This document shows positions 5,439-26,824 of a DNA stretch of 63,210 nucleotides, piece after piece. Position numbers and translations under genes: made by a program. The stretch is from positions 1-63,210 of the forward strand of contig JAIMKV010000022.1 of assembly GCA_020692205.1 (NCBI GenBank). The letters are read 5' to 3'. The number at the start of each line of letters is the position of its first letter. The stretch's first letter is position 1. This DNA comes from Myxosarcina sp. GA_180221_E-2-1-MAG-40_15. GTDB taxonomy: Bacteria > Cyanobacteriota > Cyanobacteriia > Cyanobacteriales > Xenococcaceae. The notes under the pieces were generated by a model. It did no database searches and was not told where the DNA came from. It saw only the letters and a list, made by a program, of their open reading frames with translations.

Positions 5439-8400
5439 TTAATTCATTCTGCATCCCAATTGTATCATCGAATTAATTATTGCAGCAGAATCAGCAATAG
5501 CTAGGAGAGATTGACGGTAAGTATCGCAGGCTTCATTGTATTGACCATTTATGGTATGAATCAACCCTTTTTGGCTCCAAAGACGAGGATTTTGCGGCTC
5601 GAGTTCAATAGCGCGATTAATGGCAGATAAAGCCTGTTGATTTTGAGCGATCGCAGATAAGGCTTCTGCTAACCCCTGCCAGGTACTAGCATCATAGGTC
5701 GTCAGGTTGCTAGCTTTAGAGAGAGATTCAACAGCTTGAGGATATCTTGTTTGTTGATTTAAAGCCAATCCCCGATCGCGCCACAAAGGAGCATAATTAG
5801 GATACATTTCAATGGCTCGGTCATAAAGAGCGATCGCCTCGGTCAGATTGCCTTGATTTTGATGCACAGAGCCTTTAGCCTGTAAAGCCATATAGGACTG
5901 AGGACGAATTTGCAAGGCTTTATCTAAGGCTTTTAAAGCTGTTTGAGCTTGATCTAACTGAGTCAAAGTTTTGCCTTTGGCTAACCAAGCTTCATACAGG
6001 TTTGGCTTGAGCTTAATTGCCTGATCATAAGAATCAAGTGCTTTCTGATACATCCCGGCCGCGGCGAAAAAATCTCCTTGAGCTAGCCAATTTTGCTCAT
6101 TCTGAGGTTGTTCTTGCAGCAGTTTAATATAATTATTATTAACTTCTCGTTGAACTCGCTCTGCCTCTTGGGGACGATTTAAAGCTTTTAACACGAGCAA
6201 TTTGTTCTGCCAAAGTTTCCAACTTGAAGGTTCAATTGTCTGAACTTGGTTAAAGATAGTCAGAGCGTTATGATATTGTCCTAACTGTAGTAAATTCTGA
6301 GCGCGATCGCTCAAAAATTGGGCATTAAGTTCATCTATTTCCAAAGCAGTCTCCTGCATTGTTAAAGCAGTCTGGTACTGCTGAAGTTGATACAAAGCTC
6401 TCCCTTTGAGATTATAAAGCGAGCTATCCTTTGGTTCTAACTCTAAAGCGCGATTATAAGCAGCGATCGCCTCAGTAAATCTTTCTAAGCGATATAAAGT
6501 ATTGCCTTGTTTTTGCCAAATTTCAGCATTGTTTGAATTTAGCTGTCCTGCCTCAACATATGCTTCCAAAGCTTGGGGATAACGTGCTAAAAGCGACAAA
6601 GCATCTCCTCTACCAGACCAGGCTAGCCAATGAGGTTTTAAATTAATTGCCTTGATAAAGGCATTAAGAGCAGATTGAGGTTGCTCTGGCAGTAATTTTT
6701 TACCCTGATACCAATAATAAATTGGTCTAGCTGTCGGAAAAGCAAACTCTATGCTGCCTAATAAACAGCCAATACCTAACAAACCGATTAAGATCGGCAG
6801 TGTGGTTATTTTGGTAGCAAATCTTCTTTTCTTGGGTTGAAATTGCGCTGGTTGCCGACGACTCCAAGGATTATAACTGTTAACTTTTTGCAGATCGTGG
6901 AGAATCTTCTCGGCAGACTGATAACGCTGTCCTAAATCTAGCTGAACCATCTTGTCGATGATTTTAATCAAACGGCGATCTAAATCAATATTTTGGCTCC
7001 ACATCAGCTTTCCTGTCTGTTCGTTTCGACTAAAAGTGACTGGTTTGGCTTTAGTCAAAGCTTCAATTATCGTCATTCCCAGAGCATAAAGATCGCTGCT
7101 AATAGTAGGTCTACCAGCAATTTGTTCAGGAGACCAATAGTTTTGTTTATCTTGATTCTGGCTCTGATTCGTAGTATCAGGCAAAGCCTTAATATCAGTT
7201 AAAATACCAAAGTCGGTTAAGATTATTTGCCCATCTTGGTCACGGATGATCAAATTAGCAGGCTTAATATTGCGATGAATAATCCGATTTTGATGAATAA
7301 ATCTCAAAACAGACAAAGCACTGGTTAAAATTTGAACTATTTGGCAAGTAGCTAGATTCTGCTGCGCTATTTTTTGGGCTAAATTATCACCCCGAATATA
7401 TGCTTGAACTAGATAAAATTCGTCATTTTCGGCAAAATGATCCCATAATTGCGGAATTTGCTCATGATGTCCCAATCTCTCTAAGACTGATAGTTCTTCA
7501 GCAAAATGCTGTTCAATTTTAACTTTGCCGCCATCATCTGCTGGTGGTAGTTCAATTTGCTTAATTAGACAGGGAGATTGATATCGACGATGCAGATTAT
7601 CAGCTAGATAAGTTTCAATTTCCCCGTCTCCACCTAAATAACGAGTAATTGAATAACGTCCCCCTACTACTTGTCTAATTTTAAGTAATGGTCGTAAATC
7701 ATACAGCACTTCCAAAGCAGAGCCATAGCGTTGTTCTACGACTGGAGACATCATCTTGACTAAAATTGCCTCTAATTTAGGACTGATCTGACACTGCTCT
7801 TGCCAGTTTAGATTGGTTTGTTCTAGTTCCTGTGGCGATCGCCCTGTCAAAGCATAGATAGCAGTTCGAGCCAAGGCATAAATATCACTATTAAAGTGAT
7901 ATTTGCCTGCTTTTTGTTCTGGCGCTATGTAAGATCCGTCACCCAAAGAACGAGGAAAAATTCGCTCACCTTTGAGATTTATTTCCGTTGATTCAATCTC
8001 TCGAATAGCACCAAAATCAATCAAAACAAACGTATTATCTCGCTTGCGCCTAATCAAGTGAATTGGTTGAACATCGCGATGAATCACATTCGTTTTGTGA
8101 ATAAAATCGAGGATTCTTAGAACATCTTGAATTAAGTAGATTACATCTGCTTCATCAAATAGTTTACGAACAACTTCCTGCTCTAAATTATCTCCATCAA
8201 TATATTCACGAACCAAATAAAATTGTTTATTTTCCTCGAAGTAATTGTGAAACTGGGGGATTTGAGGATGATCTCCTAGTCTTTCTAATACGGCTACTTC
8301 CTGGCGTAAATGCTGCTGAATCATCTGCCAATTTGCCTCATGATCACAGTTAGGAATCAATTGCTGGACCACGCATCTAGCATCGACCTTAGCCTGCAAA

Positions 8401-8555
8401 TCTTTTGCCAGATAGGTTTTTCCTGCTTCTTCCCTACCTAACTTCTGAATAATCTGATAGCGATCGCCAACGATTGAGCCAGGAACGTGCATTATTTTTT
8501 GGGAGTTAGTAACTTGGGGGATAGAATTAAATGCATCCCGCTTAGAAGTAGGCAT
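5439..8555 (-). CDS. Tandem kinase-like (probable pseudokinase) membrane protein with C-terminal TPR array
   Basis: A 1038-residue protein; ATG at 8555 is preferred over a TTG two codons earlier. Two Hanks-type kinase domains lie at about residues 30-290 and 300-560. A transmembrane helix follows at 583-605, then some ten or eleven TPR repeats from 625 to the end. Domain 1 lacks the ATP-anchoring lysine (CVVQQL, Gln64) and has HRDVQPIH, so the catalytic-loop Lys and metal-binding Asn are Gln163 and His166; the catalytic Asp161 and DFG remain. Domain 2 has the lysine (LIKQI, Lys332), Lys431 and DFG, but HRN replaces HRD (Asn429; codon AAT at 7271-7269). Both glycine loops are degenerate (GREEAG, GGDGEI). 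Neither domain has a full canonical set, so scaffold function or weak or cooperative catalysis is inferred. Kinase part cytoplasmic; TPR probably on the other side of the membrane. Confidence 0.9.
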   Translation of the reverse strand: MPTSKRDAFNSIPQVTNSQKIMHVPGSIVGDRYQIIQKLGREEAGKTYLAKDLQAKVDARCVVQQLIPNCDHEANWQMIQQHLRQEVAVLERLGDHPQIPQFHNYFEENKQFYLVREYIDGDNLEQEVVRKLFDEADVIYLIQDVLRILDFIHKTNVIHRDVQPIHLIRRKRDNTFVLIDFGAIREIESTEINLKGERIFPRSLGDGSYIAPEQKAGKYHFNSDIYALARTAIYALTGRSPQELEQTNLNWQEQCQISPKLEAILVKMMSPVVEQRYGSALEVLYDLRPLLKIRQVVGGRYSITRYLGGDGEIETYLADNLHRRYQSPCLIKQIELPPADDGGKVKIEQHFAEELSVLERLGHHEQIPQLWDHFAENDEFYLVQAYIRGDNLAQKIAQQNLATCQIVQILTSALSVLRFIHQNRIIHRNIKPANLIIRDQDGQIILTDFGILTDIKALPDTTNQSQNQDKQNYWSPEQIAGRPTISSDLYALGMTIIEALTKAKPVTFSRNEQTGKLMWSQNIDLDRRLIKIIDKMVQLDLGQRYQSAEKILHDLQKVNSYNPWSRRQPAQFQPKKRRFATKITTLPILIGLLGIGCLLGSIEFAFPTARPIYYWYQGKKLLPEQPQSALNAFIKAINLKPHWLAWSGRGDALSLLARYPQALEAYVEAGQLNSNNAEIWQKQGNTLYRLERFTEAIAAYNRALELEPKDSSLYNLKGRALYQLQQYQTALTMQETALEIDELNAQFLSDRAQNLLQLGQYHNALTIFNQVQTIEPSSWKLWQNKLLVLKALNRPQEAERVQREVNNNYIKLLQEQPQNEQNWLAQGDFFAAAGMYQKALDSYDQAIKLKPNLYEAWLAKGKTLTQLDQAQTALKALDKALQIRPQSYMALQAKGSVHQNQGNLTEAIALYDRAIEMYPNYAPLWRDRGLALNQQTRYPQAVESLSKASNLTTYDASTWQGLAEALSAIAQNQQALSAINRAIELEPQNPRLWSQKGLIHTINGQYNEACDTYRQSLLAIADSAAIINSMIQLGCRMN

Positions 8556-8696
8556 AATCAATCTTGATTAAAAAACAAACTAGCAATTTTGGGCAAAATT
8601 TATGATTTTATAGTTTGATCTCACATAAATATAAAACTAGCCTCTACAAAAATAAGGTATCCAATCAATTTGAATGACTTATTGTACGATCGTTTT

Positions 8697-9911
8697 TTAT
8701 TTACTGGTGAAAGTCTGTTTAGAATTCGATATTTGCTTGAGGGAAATTATTCTGGTGGTGTTGCTTTCTCTAGCAACTCGCACCAACAAGCCTGCCAACA
8801 GTAATGAGGCAATAATTGAATTAATTCCATAGCTAAAAAAAGGTAATGGTAAGCCTGTCGTCGGCAGAGAACCTGTTGCTACACCAATATTAATTAATGA
8901 TTGCCCAACAATAAAAACCATTGCGCCTACAGCAACTAACCTAGGAACATTATGACTACATTTAATTGCCACTCTGAGGGCCAAAGTACCGTAGGCAATA
9001 ATCAACAATAGTAATAGTACACAGCCTACAAAGCCAAATTCTTCGGCGTAAACTGCAAAAATAAAGTCTGTAGAACGAATTGGCAGGTATGATAATTTTT
9101 GTTGAGAAAGACCAAATCCTGCGCCATTTAAACTCCCCGAGGCGATCGCCAATAGGCTCTGAATTAACTGATATCCTTTATTGTGATAATCTTGCCAAGG
9201 ATTGAGGAAAGAAGTAATCCGATCTAGCTGATAAGGGTTGATAGTCACACTGAGACTTGCTGTACCCAAGCCGCCACCAGCAACTGCAATTAGTTGACCC
9301 AAAGGTAATTCTGCTGCTAAGGCAACTAGCCATAAACTCATACCACACAATCCTGTAGTGCTTAAATTGGGCTGCTTTAGGATTCCCGCTAAGACTAAGG
9401 TAAACACAGTTAACCATACTAAACGCACTTTGTTTTGTAACCGATTCCATCGAGCAAACAAATAAGCTGCCTGTAACACCAAAAAAGGTTTAATTAGTTC
9501 TGACGGCTGTAGCGAAAATGGTCCAATGGCAATCCAGCGACTAGCTCCCATCGTTGTCTTACCCAAACCTGGAACCAGAGTGGCAAAAATTAACAACAAG
9601 AGAACCAGCACCATTATGGGAGAAATTTTAATTGTTTTTTTTAAAGGCTGATTCGTGACAAAATTAAACCCCACAATGCCTACAGCTACACCAATTAATT
9701 GGCGTTTGAAAATATATAGTCCATCATTATTATCAGTAATTCCCTCAGGATAAGAGGCAGATACCAAAGTAATTAAGCCAATAATCAACCAAACGCAAGT
9801 TAACCAATTTAATAGGCGAGCTTCCCATGCCCAAGACTTTACTTGAGGGGAGATGAAGGGAATAAAATAACTCAGATACTGCTTTACAACTTTAGCTTTC
9901 ACCAATACCAA
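8697..9911 (-). CDS. ftsW: FtsW/RodA/SpoVE family (SEDS) peptidoglycan glycosyltransferase
   Basis: About 404 residues with roughly ten transmembrane segments, matching FtsW/RodA in length. The family signature near the C-terminus is clear (TTGLPLPFFSYGINS, about residues 345-360), as is the central motif GASRWIAIGPFSLQPSEL. SEDS proteins polymerise peptidoglycan from lipid II at the septum (FtsW) or side wall (RodA). The soluble N-terminus with LNWLTCVWL resembles cyanobacterial FtsW. The start is uncertain: TTG at 9911, or GTG at 9902; there is no in-frame ATG nearby and no clear ribosome binding site. It is a single gene between the kinase-like gene and apcC. Confidence 0.9.
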   Translation of the reverse strand: MVLVKAKVVKQYLSYFIPFISPQVKSWAWEARLLNWLTCVWLIIGLITLVSASYPEGITDNNDGLYIFKRQLIGVAVGIVGFNFVTNQPLKKTIKISPIMVLVLLLLIFATLVPGLGKTTMGASRWIAIGPFSLQPSELIKPFLVLQAAYLFARWNRLQNKVRLVWLTVFTLVLAGILKQPNLSTTGLCGMSLWLVALAAELPLGQLIAVAGGGLGTASLSVTINPYQLDRITSFLNPWQDYHNKGYQLIQSLLAIASGSLNGAGFGLSQQKLSYLPIRSTDFIFAVYAEEFGFVGCVLLLLLIIAYGTLALRVAIKCSHNVPRLVAVGAMVFIVGQSLINIGVATGSLPTTGLPLPFFSYGINSIIASLLLAGLLVRVARESNTTRIISLKQISNSKQTFTSK

Positions 9912-10536: not shown

Positions 10537-11022
10537 TTAGCTTAAGCCAGAGCAGATATAGTCGAAATAAACGCCCATTTCTTTGCCAGCATCGGCACCA
10601 GTTAAGCTAGCAGTTACTTCTTTCATAGCTTGAATAGCTTGAACAGTAGAGGCAACAGGAACTCCTAAAGAGTTGTAAGTTTCTTTCAAACCGTTAAGTA
10701 CACGCTCATCTAGAATGGAGGGATCTCCAGCTAGCATAGCGTAAGTGGAATAACGTAAATAATAGTCTAAGTCACGAATACAAGCTGCATAGCGACGAGT
10801 GGTGTACATATTGCCACCAGGACGAGTAACATCAGAATACAGCAAAGATTTTGCTACTGCCTCCTTGACGATGCTAGCTGCGTTAGCACTAATTACGCTT
10901 GCTGCGCGAACTCTTAATTGACCAGTTTGAAAGTAGCTTTTGAGCTTGTCCATGGCAGCACCATCGAGGTATCTACCTTGAACGTCAGCTGAATTAATTA
11001 CAGAGGTAATTGCGTCTTGCAT
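10537..11022 (-). CDS. apcB: Allophycocyanin beta subunit
   Basis: 161 residues, the exact family length. Cys81 ([10 protein letters not shown]) binds phycocyanobilin and Asn71 (RPGGNMY) is the usual gamma-N-methylation site. With ApcA it forms the trimers that build the phycobilisome core and pass energy to the terminal emitters. ATG at 11022, 108 bases after the apcA stop; same operon as apcA and apcC. Confidence 0.99.
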
Positions 11023-11130
11023 AGTTTTATTTCCTTATCTTACCGAGTCTTAAGCTGTTTAACACTGATAAGTTAGTGTATTTTTGAAAAAGTTTGTTAC
11101 TAGTTTATGTTAGCAGCAGAGTATTACCTA

Positions 11131-11616
11131 CTACTGCATCGCTCCGATCACATAATCGAAGTAGGAAGCAGCTTCACCAGTGTCTTCAGCAGACATCATT
11201 GAAGTAGCTACATTTTTCATCTCACGGATGCTTTGAGCCATAGCACCTACATCGGTACCTAAAGACTTATACATTTCTTTAGCACCAACTAAACCAATTT
11301 CTTCAATTGGGGTGATATCACCAGCTACTACACCATAGGTAATTAGGCGTAGGTAGTAGTCCATGTCACGTAGGCAAGTTGCAGTCATTTCTTCACCGTA
11401 AGCGTTACCGCCAGGAGAAACAACGTCAGGACGCTTTTGGAATAGCTGATCTCCAGCTTGCTTAACGATACGCTCACGAGACTCAGTGAGAGTTTGAGCG
11501 ATACGCAAACGGCTTTCGCCAGTAGTTACAAAAGATTTAATTCTTTCTAATTCGCCAGGGCTCAAGTAGCGAGCCTCTGCATCGGCATTCACGATAGATT
11601 TCGTGACTATACTCAT
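11131..11616 (-). CDS. apcA: Allophycocyanin alpha subunit
   Basis: 161 residues starting [20 protein letters not shown], as in other cyanobacteria. Cys81 in [11 protein letters not shown] carries the phycocyanobilin. Core phycobiliprotein of the light-harvesting antenna, paired with ApcB. An AGGAGG-like box (TGGGAGGAATC) sits about five bases before the ATG at 11616. The 654-base gap upstream suggests its own strong promoter, as is known for apcAB(C) in other species. Confidence 0.99.
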
Positions 11617-12270
11617 CGATGGATTCCTCCCAAGACAATGAAATAAAATTAATAAACAAACTATCTTCTAAGTTGATAGCTTTAGTTAGAAAAGACTCCC
11701 AGCTACCTATTTTAATTAATAGCTTGATCGCTTGAGCTATTAAATATGGCACTATACAACTAAATCAGGCTTTTATGGTTGAAATCCAGGTTTAATTGCT
11801 GCTAGTTAAATCTTTCTTATAGATTACTCTGTTTTGTCACTCAGTTTCTAACTTTTGGCTACAAATTTTAGTATTGCAGCTTCACCAAATTAAAGTGCGG
11901 AAACCAGGTAGCGTATTAACAAACCTTTACATGCAGTTAATGTCTGGCAATATTTGCTTCCTCGATAACTCCAGGTAAATTTTGCCGCTAGACACAACTT
12001 AGAGTAAACGCTACCGTTAATTGCAGCCAAGCGTTTTATTACTTAAGCAAGCACCTAATACCTAGGATTATAATCCGCTATTTTGTTGCAGTTAATTACT
12101 CTTCCTTAACAGAATTTAATGTTACCTCTGACCAAGGTCAGAGGTTTTAATTATTGAAATAAAGTATTGACTGCCAGGGTAAAAAAGGGTAGACAAAACA
12201 GCTTGCTGATAAGCGATCGCAATTTAGCTGAGATCTGTCTACCTGACCACAATTAATTATACTTATTGCC
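11617..12270. other. apcE-apcA intergenic region
   Basis: 654 bases with no coding frame seen, between the apcE stop and the apcA start (both minus). It presumably holds the apcA promoter and a long leader. The only clear structure is the perfect hairpin at 12124-12145. I could not pick a promoter with confidence. Confidence 0.5.
12124..12148. terminator. Perfect 10-bp hairpin downstream of apcE
   Basis: ACCTCTGACC (12124-12133), AA, GGTCAGAGGT (12136-12145). It lies about 125 bases after the apcE stop. The T-rich side (TTTTAATTATT) follows on the plus strand, whereas apcE is on the minus strand, so it may be a processing or 3'-end stabilising hairpin rather than a classical terminator. Confidence 0.5.
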
Positions 12271-15439
<3,169 letters not shown>

Positions 15440-25615: not shown

Positions 25616-26824
25616 TTAAAGATCTTTTCTAAATCCCTCTCCCTGTTTAACTCTAGGGGTAGAAGAATCAGGTATGTCAGAAGGTGCAGGACGATCTAGT
25701 TGGGGTTGAAGAACAGTTTGCTGCATTAAAAAATATATACCACCGAAAATAACTGCTCCCAAAGCGATCGCACCAGTAAAAATTATCCTGGTAAACTTGG
25801 ATTTTTCAGAGCTAGAATTGGTTTTGCTAGCTGCGGTTTGCTTATTTGGTAGAACACTATAACTCTGGCTTGGCTCAATCGGGTTGCCCAAGTTAATACC
25901 AGGTAATAGAGATCTTGCTACTGATTCATTTTCCGTTTTGGCTGAAGCAGCAGTTGAATCATCTAAGACAGAGCGATCAATAGTCGTAGTCAACTGAAGC
26001 TTAGTTGGGACATCTTGAGAGAAATCATTTACAGCCTGTAAAGCTGACCTTGCTGATTGATAACGATCCTCGAAGTGATAGCGCGTCATTTGAGTCAGAA
26101 TTTGAGCCAACTGTGGGTCTATTTCAGCCAAATGCGTCCACCTCAGCTCGCCCTGATTATCTTCTTCTAGCTCTAGAGGTTCAACTCCAGTCAGAGCTTG
26201 AATGCCAATAATTCCCAGGGCATACACATCACTTGCTGGACGAGGTTTTCCTCTAGCTTGCTCTGCTGGCATATAGCCTTGTGTTCCCACTGGTACAGTT
26301 AGCTGACCAAGATTAGTTTGTCCTTGAAGCAAGTTTTTTACTGTACCAAAATCCACTAAGACAATTTTACGATCGCAACTACGGCGAATTAGATTATTAG
26401 GTTTAACATCTCGATGAATTACCCCTTTAGTATGAATGAAGTCAAGAATTTTCAAACCGTCTGCTAATAATTCGATTACCTGCGCCTGTGACCAAACTCG
26501 ATTGGGGGTTAACTCATGCTCAAGTGTTTTACCTTCAATATATTGCTGTACCAAATAAAATTTTTCTTCTTCCTCAAAATAAGCCAAAAGTTCTGGGATG
26601 CGATCGTGAGAACCTAGACTGTGTAGTGCAGAGGCTTCGGTTTTAAACAACCGCCGTGCCACCGTCAAAAATTGGGGAGCTTCAACACTGGGAGAGAGCT
26701 GTTTGACTACACATAGATCTCTGCCTGGGATTTGAGTATCTTCCGCTAGATAAGTTGTGCCAAACCCCCCCCTGGCAATATATTCAAGAACTTGATAACG
26801 AGAGCCTAAAATTTTTCCCTTCAC
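25616..26824 (-). CDS. Ser/Thr protein kinase with C-terminal membrane anchor
   Basis: 402 residues. An intact Hanks-type kinase domain (about 8-270): glycine loop ARGGFGTTY, ATP lysine in CVVKQL, helix C Glu in FKTEASAL, catalytic loop HRDVKPNN, DFG (VLVDFGTVK) and a MPAEQ activation-loop end. A Ser/Thr-rich linker leads to one transmembrane helix (about 347-368) and a short Pro-rich tail. All catalytic residues are present, unlike the tandem protein at 5.4-8.6 kb. The start is GTG at 26824, directly before GKILGSRYQVLEYI. Target unknown. Confidence 0.93.
   Translation of the reverse strand: MKGKILGSRYQVLEYIARGGFGTTYLAEDTQIPGRDLCVVKQLSPSVEAPQFLTVARRLFKTEASALHSLGSHDRIPELLAYFEEEEKFYLVQQYIEGKTLEHELTPNRVWSQAQVIELLADGLKILDFIHTKGVIHRDVKPNNLIRRSCDRKIVLVDFGTVKNLLQGQTNLGQLTVPVGTQGYMPAEQARGKPRPASDVYALGIIGIQALTGVEPLELEEDNQGELRWTHLAEIDPQLAQILTQMTRYHFEDRYQSARSALQAVNDFSQDVPTKLQLTTTIDRSVLDDSTAASAKTENESVARSLLPGINLGNPIEPSQSYSVLPNKQTAASKTNSSSEKSKFTRIIFTGAIALGAVIFGGIYFLMQQTVLQPQLDRPAPSDIPDSSTPRVKQGEGFRKDL

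Follow-up and report, generated by a model that had tools for sequence, protein, structure and literature searches.

A conserved tandem pseudokinase with receptor architecture downstream of ftsW in a genus of cyanobacteria

Here, we examine a tandem kinase-like protein encoded in a stretch of 63,210 nucleotides of the cyanobacterium Myxosarcina sp. GA_180221_E-2-1-MAG-40_15 (contig JAIMKV010000022.1; this whole stretch is called the window below). Two domains of the Hanks-type kinase fold, D1 and D2, are followed in this protein by a single hydrophobic helix and an array of tetratricopeptide repeats (TPRs), and its gene lies downstream of a gene for an FtsW-type protein of the shape, elongation, division and sporulation (SEDS) family (Table 1). 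Comparison with orthologues shows a conserved double pseudokinase, predicted as such from the residues missing in both domains, with the architecture of a receptor.

Table 1. Features of the window discussed in the text
Feature	Positions	Strand	Details and evidence
Tandem pseudokinase - membrane helix - TPR protein	5439..8561	-	1040 aa; open reading frame, Pfam, orthologues
Kinase-like domain D1	7686..8483	-	residues ~27-292; Q66, HRDVQPIH, DFG; Pfam, alignment, dN/dS
Kinase-like domain D2	6864..7670	-	residues ~298-566; K334, HRNIKPAN, DFG; Pfam, alignment, model
Single hydrophobic helix	6738..6794	-	residues ~590-608; KKRR before helix; hydropathy
~12 TPR repeats	5445..6686	-	residues ~626-1039; Pfam and whole-protein model
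FtsW-type SEDS protein	8697..9911	-	135 bp upstream of the tandem gene, same strand; NCBIfam
apcB, apcA, apcE adjoining ftsW	10537..14979	-	neighbourhood also frequent in the order where the tandem gene is absent
Complete single kinase	25616..26824	-	candidate partner in the original prediction; no evidence of a link found

Architecture and predicted fold

The open reading frame is free of stops and starts with a TTG codon at 8561; an alternative ATG lies at 8555, hence the coordinates 5439-8555 in the original prediction, which had been made from the letters of the window. Two stretches match the Pkinase family (PF00069; E 6.6e-62 for the whole protein), and many TPR families of Pfam match the C-terminal part. 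In D1, the glycine loop is degenerate (GREEAGK), Q66 stands in place of the beta3 Lys, the C-helix Glu is retained, and the catalytic loop reads H161-R162-D163 with Q165 for the loop Lys and H168 for the metal-binding Asn, followed by D182-F183-G184. D2, the glycine loop of which is likewise degenerate (GGDGEIE), retains the beta3 Lys (K334) and the C-helix Glu and has H429-R430-N431, K433, N436 and D450-F451-G452. All that the original prediction had said of these residues, degenerate glycine loops included, proved correct, as did the membrane helix and the ten or so TPRs.

In an AlphaFold model of the whole protein (mean predicted local distance difference test score, pLDDT, 63.7), 24 consecutive helices at residues 628-1035 form about 12 TPRs, mostly with pLDDT >80 except around residues 731-810. 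D1 is poorly modelled in this full-length prediction, and the N-lobes of the kinase domains mostly have pLDDT <40, so that the interdomain arrangement is unreadable. D2 modelled alone from a 17-row alignment is a complete bilobal kinase (mean pLDDT 83.1; predicted template modelling score 0.83), and its best solved matches are the bacterial receptor kinases Stk1/PknB of S. aureus and PknB of M. tuberculosis. By the positive-inside rule, the KKRR before the helix would place the kinase domains in the cytoplasm and the TPRs outside.

Catalytic residues across the genus

Residues were counted in the 11 full-length copies found in the genus of the window (g1, Pleurocapsa/Waterburya-like; L001-L011, window included), a broken copy being excluded. 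In D1, the loop Lys is replaced by Gln in all 11, the beta3 Lys is lost in 10 (Glu 9, Gln 1, Lys 1), and the C-helix Glu is retained throughout; the HRD Asp position is occupied by Asp in 9 copies and Asn in 2, the metal-binding Asn position by His in 9 and Asn in 2, and the DFG Asp position by Asn in 8 and Asp in 3. Every copy of D1 lacks, besides the loop Lys, the beta3 Lys, the DFG Asp, or both. In D2, the beta3 Lys, C-helix Glu and Asn are each kept in 11/11 copies, the HRD Asp is Asn and the glycine loop degenerate in every one, and most copies keep the loop Lys (Lys 9, Arg 1, Gln 1) and the DFG Asp (Asp 10, Asn 1). Among the changes that the original prediction had singled out for comparison with orthologues, the HRN of D2 and the loop Gln of D1 are thus fixed, whereas the beta3 Lys loss and the Asn-to-His change in D1 hold in 10 and 9 copies, respectively.

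Neither domain in any of the 11 copies unites the beta3 Lys, HRD Asp, Asn and DFG Asp of an active Ser/Thr kinase. A conserved fold from which catalytic residues are consistently missing, as here, marks a pseudokinase, inactivity itself being a prediction from sequence. The residue pattern is not due to chance, because it is kept across the genus, and these genus-wide fixed substitutions support the earlier proposal of pseudokinase domains that serve, fused to a membrane helix and TPRs, as a receptor or scaffold.

The original prediction had also described the losses in the two domains as largely complementary, which is literally true of the window sequence. Across the genus, the union of D1 and D2 covers each of the six residue types in 7/11 copies, as would suit a composite enzyme or an obligate pair of domains, and the tandems of a separate family (f9, described below) split the losses between their domains in mirror image. 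However, in the other four copies, one or more residue types are missing from D1 and D2 alike, L004 having neither an HRD Asp nor a DFG Asp in either, which contradicts complementary active sites as a conserved principle. Moreover, a kinase active site sits in the cleft of one domain, and residues cannot be pooled between domains. We therefore regard complementation as highly improbable and reject it as a conserved principle.

Acquisition of another nucleotide-transfer activity by one of the domains, as in SelO (AMPylation) or SidJ (glutamylation), appears very unlikely as well. D2 keeps the nucleotide-binding set, and such changes have been described for bacterial pseudokinases (PMC12599244), but the Glu at the beta3 Lys position of D1 in 9/11 copies would hinder ATP binding, and no new active-site residue was noticed, no systematic search for one having been made.

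Selection on the two kinase-like domains

Ratios of nonsynonymous to synonymous substitution rates (dN/dS) were estimated by the Nei-Gojobori method for six g1 pairs, with synonymous sites saturating in the more distant ones. Values for D1 and D2 are well under 1 in all six pairs, showing both kinase-like domains, on these estimates, to be under purifying selection. For D1, the ratio ranges from 0.05 to 0.25, is lower than that of the TPRs of the same pair in 4/6 pairs and higher in 2/6, and compares with 0.09 and 0.08 in the g2 and g6 pairs, respectively, where D1 is complete. As judged from these ratios, D1 is still constrained after the loss of its catalytic set, but less so than a complete D1.

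These data bear on the possibility of a relaxed gene on its way out, in which unused kinase domains decay and only the helix and TPRs matter. The D1 losses do differ between copies, one genus copy is broken, and D1 evolves faster than the TPRs in the two pairs just mentioned. Nevertheless, mean identity within g1 is higher for D1 (0.70) and D2 (0.70) than for the TPRs (0.61), and 11/12 genus copies are full-length open frames. Together with the low dN/dS, which argues against decay of a useless gene short of excluding it, this leaves the explanation quite improbable.

Orthologues and the history of the losses

Orthologues were sought in 60 relatives and, additionally, in GTDB genomes (8 loci). 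Besides the 11 full-length copies, g1 contains one broken copy in the metagenome assembly G003 (L072, G003:C49), the split of which over three frames reflects either gene loss or an assembly error; no tandem copy was found in the g1 genome G001 (81% complete). Further syntenic copies occur in g2 (2), g3 (1), g5 (1) and g6 (2), one of those in g6 (L012) having a stop at the very start, ahead of the likely initiation codon, and two distant copies with 32-36% identity lie away from ftsW in g8. In all 17 syntenic copies other than the window and g8 (broken copy counted), ftsW is upstream on the same strand, and apcA/apcB/apcE lie beyond it in 12/17, being unseen in G003, G006, G010, G017 and G022, two of which are short contigs. 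Because the tandem gene is absent within 1.5 kb at six ftsW loci of g4, g7 and g8, it seems to have entered the site 3' of ftsW before the five genera diverged.

The sister genera reveal an earlier state of the protein. D1 is complete in all five syntenic orthologues of g2, g3 and g6, and D2 is complete in both g2 copies (HRDIKPSN and DFG; L013, L014), has HRN in both g6 copies and, in g3, combines HRD and a loop Asn with NFG; the g5 copy shows extensive degradation of D1 as well as D2. As D1 is complete in sister genera at the same locus, the comparison shows that the double pseudokinase derives from a tandem with a complete D1 in a lineage shared with three sister genera; within the genus of the window, D1 was deprived of residues that anchor ATP, bind metal and act in catalysis, and D2 of its catalytic base. 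The original prediction had held that orthologues with complete sets would reveal local mutations: such orthologues exist, for D1 in these five copies and for D2 in two, but in the genus of the window not one of the copies found has escaped the loss. In a tree of the membrane/TPR part, g1 and g5 group together (97/96) against g2, g3 and g6 (100/99), and the death of D1 fits a single event in the g1 and g5 ancestor; g8, where D1 is also wrecked, would represent a second. The HRN of D2 is as compatible with a single change that was later reversed in g2/g3 as with two separate changes.

The canonical D2 of g2, along with the Lys, Glu, Asn and, mostly, DFG kept in g1, is what would be expected if D2 of the window protein were a weak but real kinase regulated by D1, that is, a slow receptor kinase. 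We deem this unlikely, given that HRN is fixed in g1, that one copy also has NFG and two have a changed loop Lys (Arg, Gln), and that the glycine loop is degenerate in all 11.

Related tandem kinases

The window protein is not the only tandem of this kind. Family B, with proteins of about 873 amino acids (L077, G000:C50, in the genome of the window), was found once in each of the 20 genomes that carry the window protein; in all 26 members examined (fragment L030 excluded), D1 is complete, and D2 has HxN and an Asn-to-Ser change. In three further tandems (L021, L022, L078), both domains are complete at these residues. The D2 domains of families A and B and of the both-intact tandems form one clade (Shimodaira-Hasegawa-like approximate likelihood ratio test 97; 94/80, not starred, in a second tree), and because of this single clade the tandem probably arose once, after which paralogues would have lost different domains. 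Just downstream of two both-complete TPR tandems (L076, L078), in convergent orientation, lies a COP23-family gene with a signal-like start, no fasciclin gene being present in that place.

In another cyanobacterial family, f9, eight tandem TPR proteins of about 1050-1100 amino acids (L200-L205, L207, L208) mirror the window protein: D1 has HRN with DFG in 7/8 and keeps the beta3 Lys in 6/8, and D2 shows Lys to Glu along with NFG in 6/8. The six proteins with both mirror features come from one genus and are close to each other; of the exceptions, D2 of L208 still has Lys and DFG, and L207 shows heavy damage to both domains. In the tree, the f9 domains are placed among single kinases, a position suggestive of an independent fusion. 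Common origin with the other tandems is disfavoured, though not rejected (approximately unbiased test, p-AU 0.087), and we accordingly dropped a single origin of all tandems.

Genomic neighbours and candidate partners

For the SEDS neighbour, ftsW is the best of six NCBIfam matches (308 bits, below the cut-off of 337.5). Beyond it lie apcB and the putative apcA and apcE genes. A link to allophycocyanin was considered and rejected: apcB lies within 1.5 kb of ftsW at 7/11 tandem-less loci (L224, L226-L229, L231, L232) and not at the other four (L222, L223, L225, L230), and since this arrangement is common without the tandem gene, proximity of apcB is uninformative about the latter.

The single kinase at 25616-26824 (L042) is intact, as originally described, being complete at K, E, HRD, K, N and DFG, although the first Gly of its loop is Ala (ARGGFGT). 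Its proposed role as a partner finds no support, as it clusters among single kinases of other kinds and distance is the sole link. Our guess is that the G000:C50 paralogue, with its complete D1, is a better candidate. The genome of the window encodes a further pseudokinase of 501 amino acids (L108, G000:C65) with the motifs CKIERL, HLNIRPSS and DFA.

Fasciclin genes beside TPR kinases

In g2, g3 and g6, all five syntenic loci contain, between ftsW and the tandem gene and on the opposite strand, a gene for a protein of about 190 amino acids that begins like a signal peptide and contains a fasciclin domain, the latter assigned by PF02469 for the one protein scanned and by a five-sequence alignment for the other copies. 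In g1 (window and 11 relatives, broken copy counted) and g5, the gap between ftsW and the tandem gene is 96-214 bp, with no fasciclin gene there (13/13). Elsewhere, six genomes (G005, G008, G011, G018, G019, G023) have fasciclin paralogues that adjoin single pseudokinase-TPR genes, and of the 53 fasciclin matches across 22 genomes, at least 12 adjoin a kinase gene. At L058 and L060 (G005, G011), a dead tandem gene, a fasciclin gene (~80 bp on) and a single pseudokinase-TPR gene are immediate neighbours.

Beyond the family, 195 genomes of the order were searched with eight of the neighbouring fasciclins. A kinase-TPR gene is present within 5 kb in 8 of the 22 best new fasciclin stretches and in none of 20 hand-picked, lower-scoring controls (one-sided Fisher p 0.0027, uncorrected for kinship), six of the eight positive stretches coming from one family, f20. 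The eight kinases are complete, and both gene orientations occur among the pairs. Conversely, when one such kinase served as the query, eight of the nine top matches (query included) have a fasciclin gene within 1.5 kb, and the ninth has one at 3.1 kb; at the other 22 loci of this reverse search, none was seen in the stretch read, at least four of them (L212-L214, L219) having one just outside.

Several points weigh against a general pairing: the controls differ in score and were picked by hand, the search model was built from the neighbours themselves, and no fasciclin gene was found near family B (0/20 stretches, 19 of family B and the both-intact tandem L078) or within 1.5 kb on each side of the eight f9 tandems. 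Around the two fasciclin genes in the genome of the window (C76, C68), the 4 to 6 kb read in either direction contain no kinase. We likewise rejected the idea that D1 died because the fasciclin gene was lost, as the correlation involves one tree branch (g1 and g5 versus g2, g3 and g6) of unpolarised direction and is not strict, G005 and G011 having a fasciclin gene just downstream of a gene with a dead D1.

As an observation in its own right, genes for secreted fasciclin proteins stand beside TPR kinase or pseudokinase genes in several families and in both orientations (L067-L071, L058, L060, L099, L103, L104, L152-L156, L158, L161, L168), with three fasciclin genes in a row at L156. To our knowledge, no protein ligand has been reported for this class of cyanobacterial receptor kinases; the pairing, if real, would provide one. 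A tentative and rather doubtful scenario joins these data: a secreted FAS1 ligand and the adjoining TPR receptor kinase would form a system; in the clade of the window, where the ftsW slot lacks the fasciclin gene, the receptor would have become catalytically dead and allosteric, and the mirror-image split of f9, with an HRN, ATP-capable domain and a Lys-to-Glu/NFG domain, would represent a selected design rather than decay.

Discussion

Taken together, our observations make it reasonably probable that the window protein, derived from a tandem with a complete D1, is a non-catalytic receptor in which D2 resembles HER3 and binds ATP; it would most likely signal through shape and binding rather than through phosphorylation. 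Under this reading, the TPR array, on the outer side of the cytoplasmic membrane or within the thylakoid lumen, would bind a protein, and the signal would pass through the single membrane helix. Given HRN along with the beta3 Lys and DFG, D2 is expected to bind Mg-ATP without efficient transfer; its residue set is compatible with a HER3-like allosteric pseudokinase, and it could serve as the conformational module, with D1 acting as a docking domain for which nucleotide binding is unnecessary. As its output, the receptor would recruit another protein or control it allosterically; the most plausible targets are an active kinase belonging to the same TPR-receptor clan, such as G000:C50, or the neighbouring FtsW machinery, either partner being a guess. 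Since bacterial receptor kinases are activated by N-lobe dimers, a mode of allosteric activation described in PMC3601408, an inactive partner could, by analogy, switch on an active kinase.

Several observations count against this interpretation. In the closest pair, that of the window itself, dN/dS of D1 (0.25) exceeds that of the TPRs (0.17) and is higher by a factor of two to three than in complete D1s (0.08-0.09). The broken G003 copy suggests that the gene may be dispensable in places, and the predicted topology comes from charge bias alone. The C50 paralogue family accompanies the window protein in each of its 20 genomes, yet also occurs in members of the bacterial family that lack this protein, so that co-occurrence says nothing, and the link to ftsW is one of vertical inheritance inside one bacterial family. 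Kinases with HRD changed to HRN can keep residual activity, so that D2 is perhaps not wholly dead. Finally, the C-helix residue is His in HER3, as reported in PMC13259870, and Glu in D2 of the window protein.

Bacterial pseudokinases are described as largely unexplored by experiment in a 2025 review of their families (PMC12599244), in which the words tandem, TPR and HRN are absent. We found no report of this tandem or of a fasciclin-kinase pair in the open-access PMC literature (including PMC2176072, PMC1262709, PMC2877116 and PMC12599244, searched by term for the tandem). Here, the proteins encoded at one syntenic site form a series, with a receptor that has a complete kinase domain at one end and a fully impaired form at the other, and paralogues within the same genome have lost the other domain. 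Such natural intermediates allow the question of what a pseudokinase gains on ceasing phosphorylation to be tested.

Among known systems, the PASTA receptors PknB/StkP share with the window protein a kinase inside, one helix and an ectodomain of repeats. However, in the window protein TPRs replace PASTA, and PASTA receptors have a single active kinase; the window protein scores 196.8 bits against the PASTA receptor kinase model NF033483 (cut-off 450), with no PASTA among the best 25 of its 26 Pfam rows. In mycobacteria, pknA and pknB are found in an operon with rodA (PMC3601408).

With respect to the residues of D2, the closest parallel is HER3 (ErbB3), a receptor with HRN that retains the beta3 Lys and DFG and has a C-helix His (PMC13259870). 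By contrast, the glycine loop of D2 is degenerate, a difference from the HER3 set, and HER3 is an animal tyrosine receptor with one kinase domain; the two pseudokinase states would have arisen separately. The JAK family resembles the window protein in having two kinase folds in tandem, in the order pseudokinase-kinase. Unlike the window protein, which is impaired in both domains, JAKs keep one active domain, and the G000:C50 family, with one complete and one dead domain, has the reverse of the JAK order.

Closer to home, the CP1 pseudokinases are, according to PMC12599244, largely cyanobacterial, some with partial motif loss, lack a membrane helix and carry COG3899. The window protein shares the cyanobacterial setting but has the helix at 590-608 and no COG3899, no ATPase family appearing among the best 25 of 26 Pfam rows. 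The 2007 survey of cyanobacterial kinases (Zhang et al., PMC2176072) lists TPR kinases, excluded 17 proteins without catalytic parts and does not use 'tandem' or 'two kinase domains' in its main text. With the cbSTKII kinases of that survey, the window protein shares the broad kinase lineage and the TPR C-terminus, a kinase domain combined with TPRs in a cyanobacterium, and it is set apart from them by its second kinase-like domain and the impairment of both. Thus, the pseudokinase receptor is a known kind of protein, and the tandem, doubly impaired TPR form is new.

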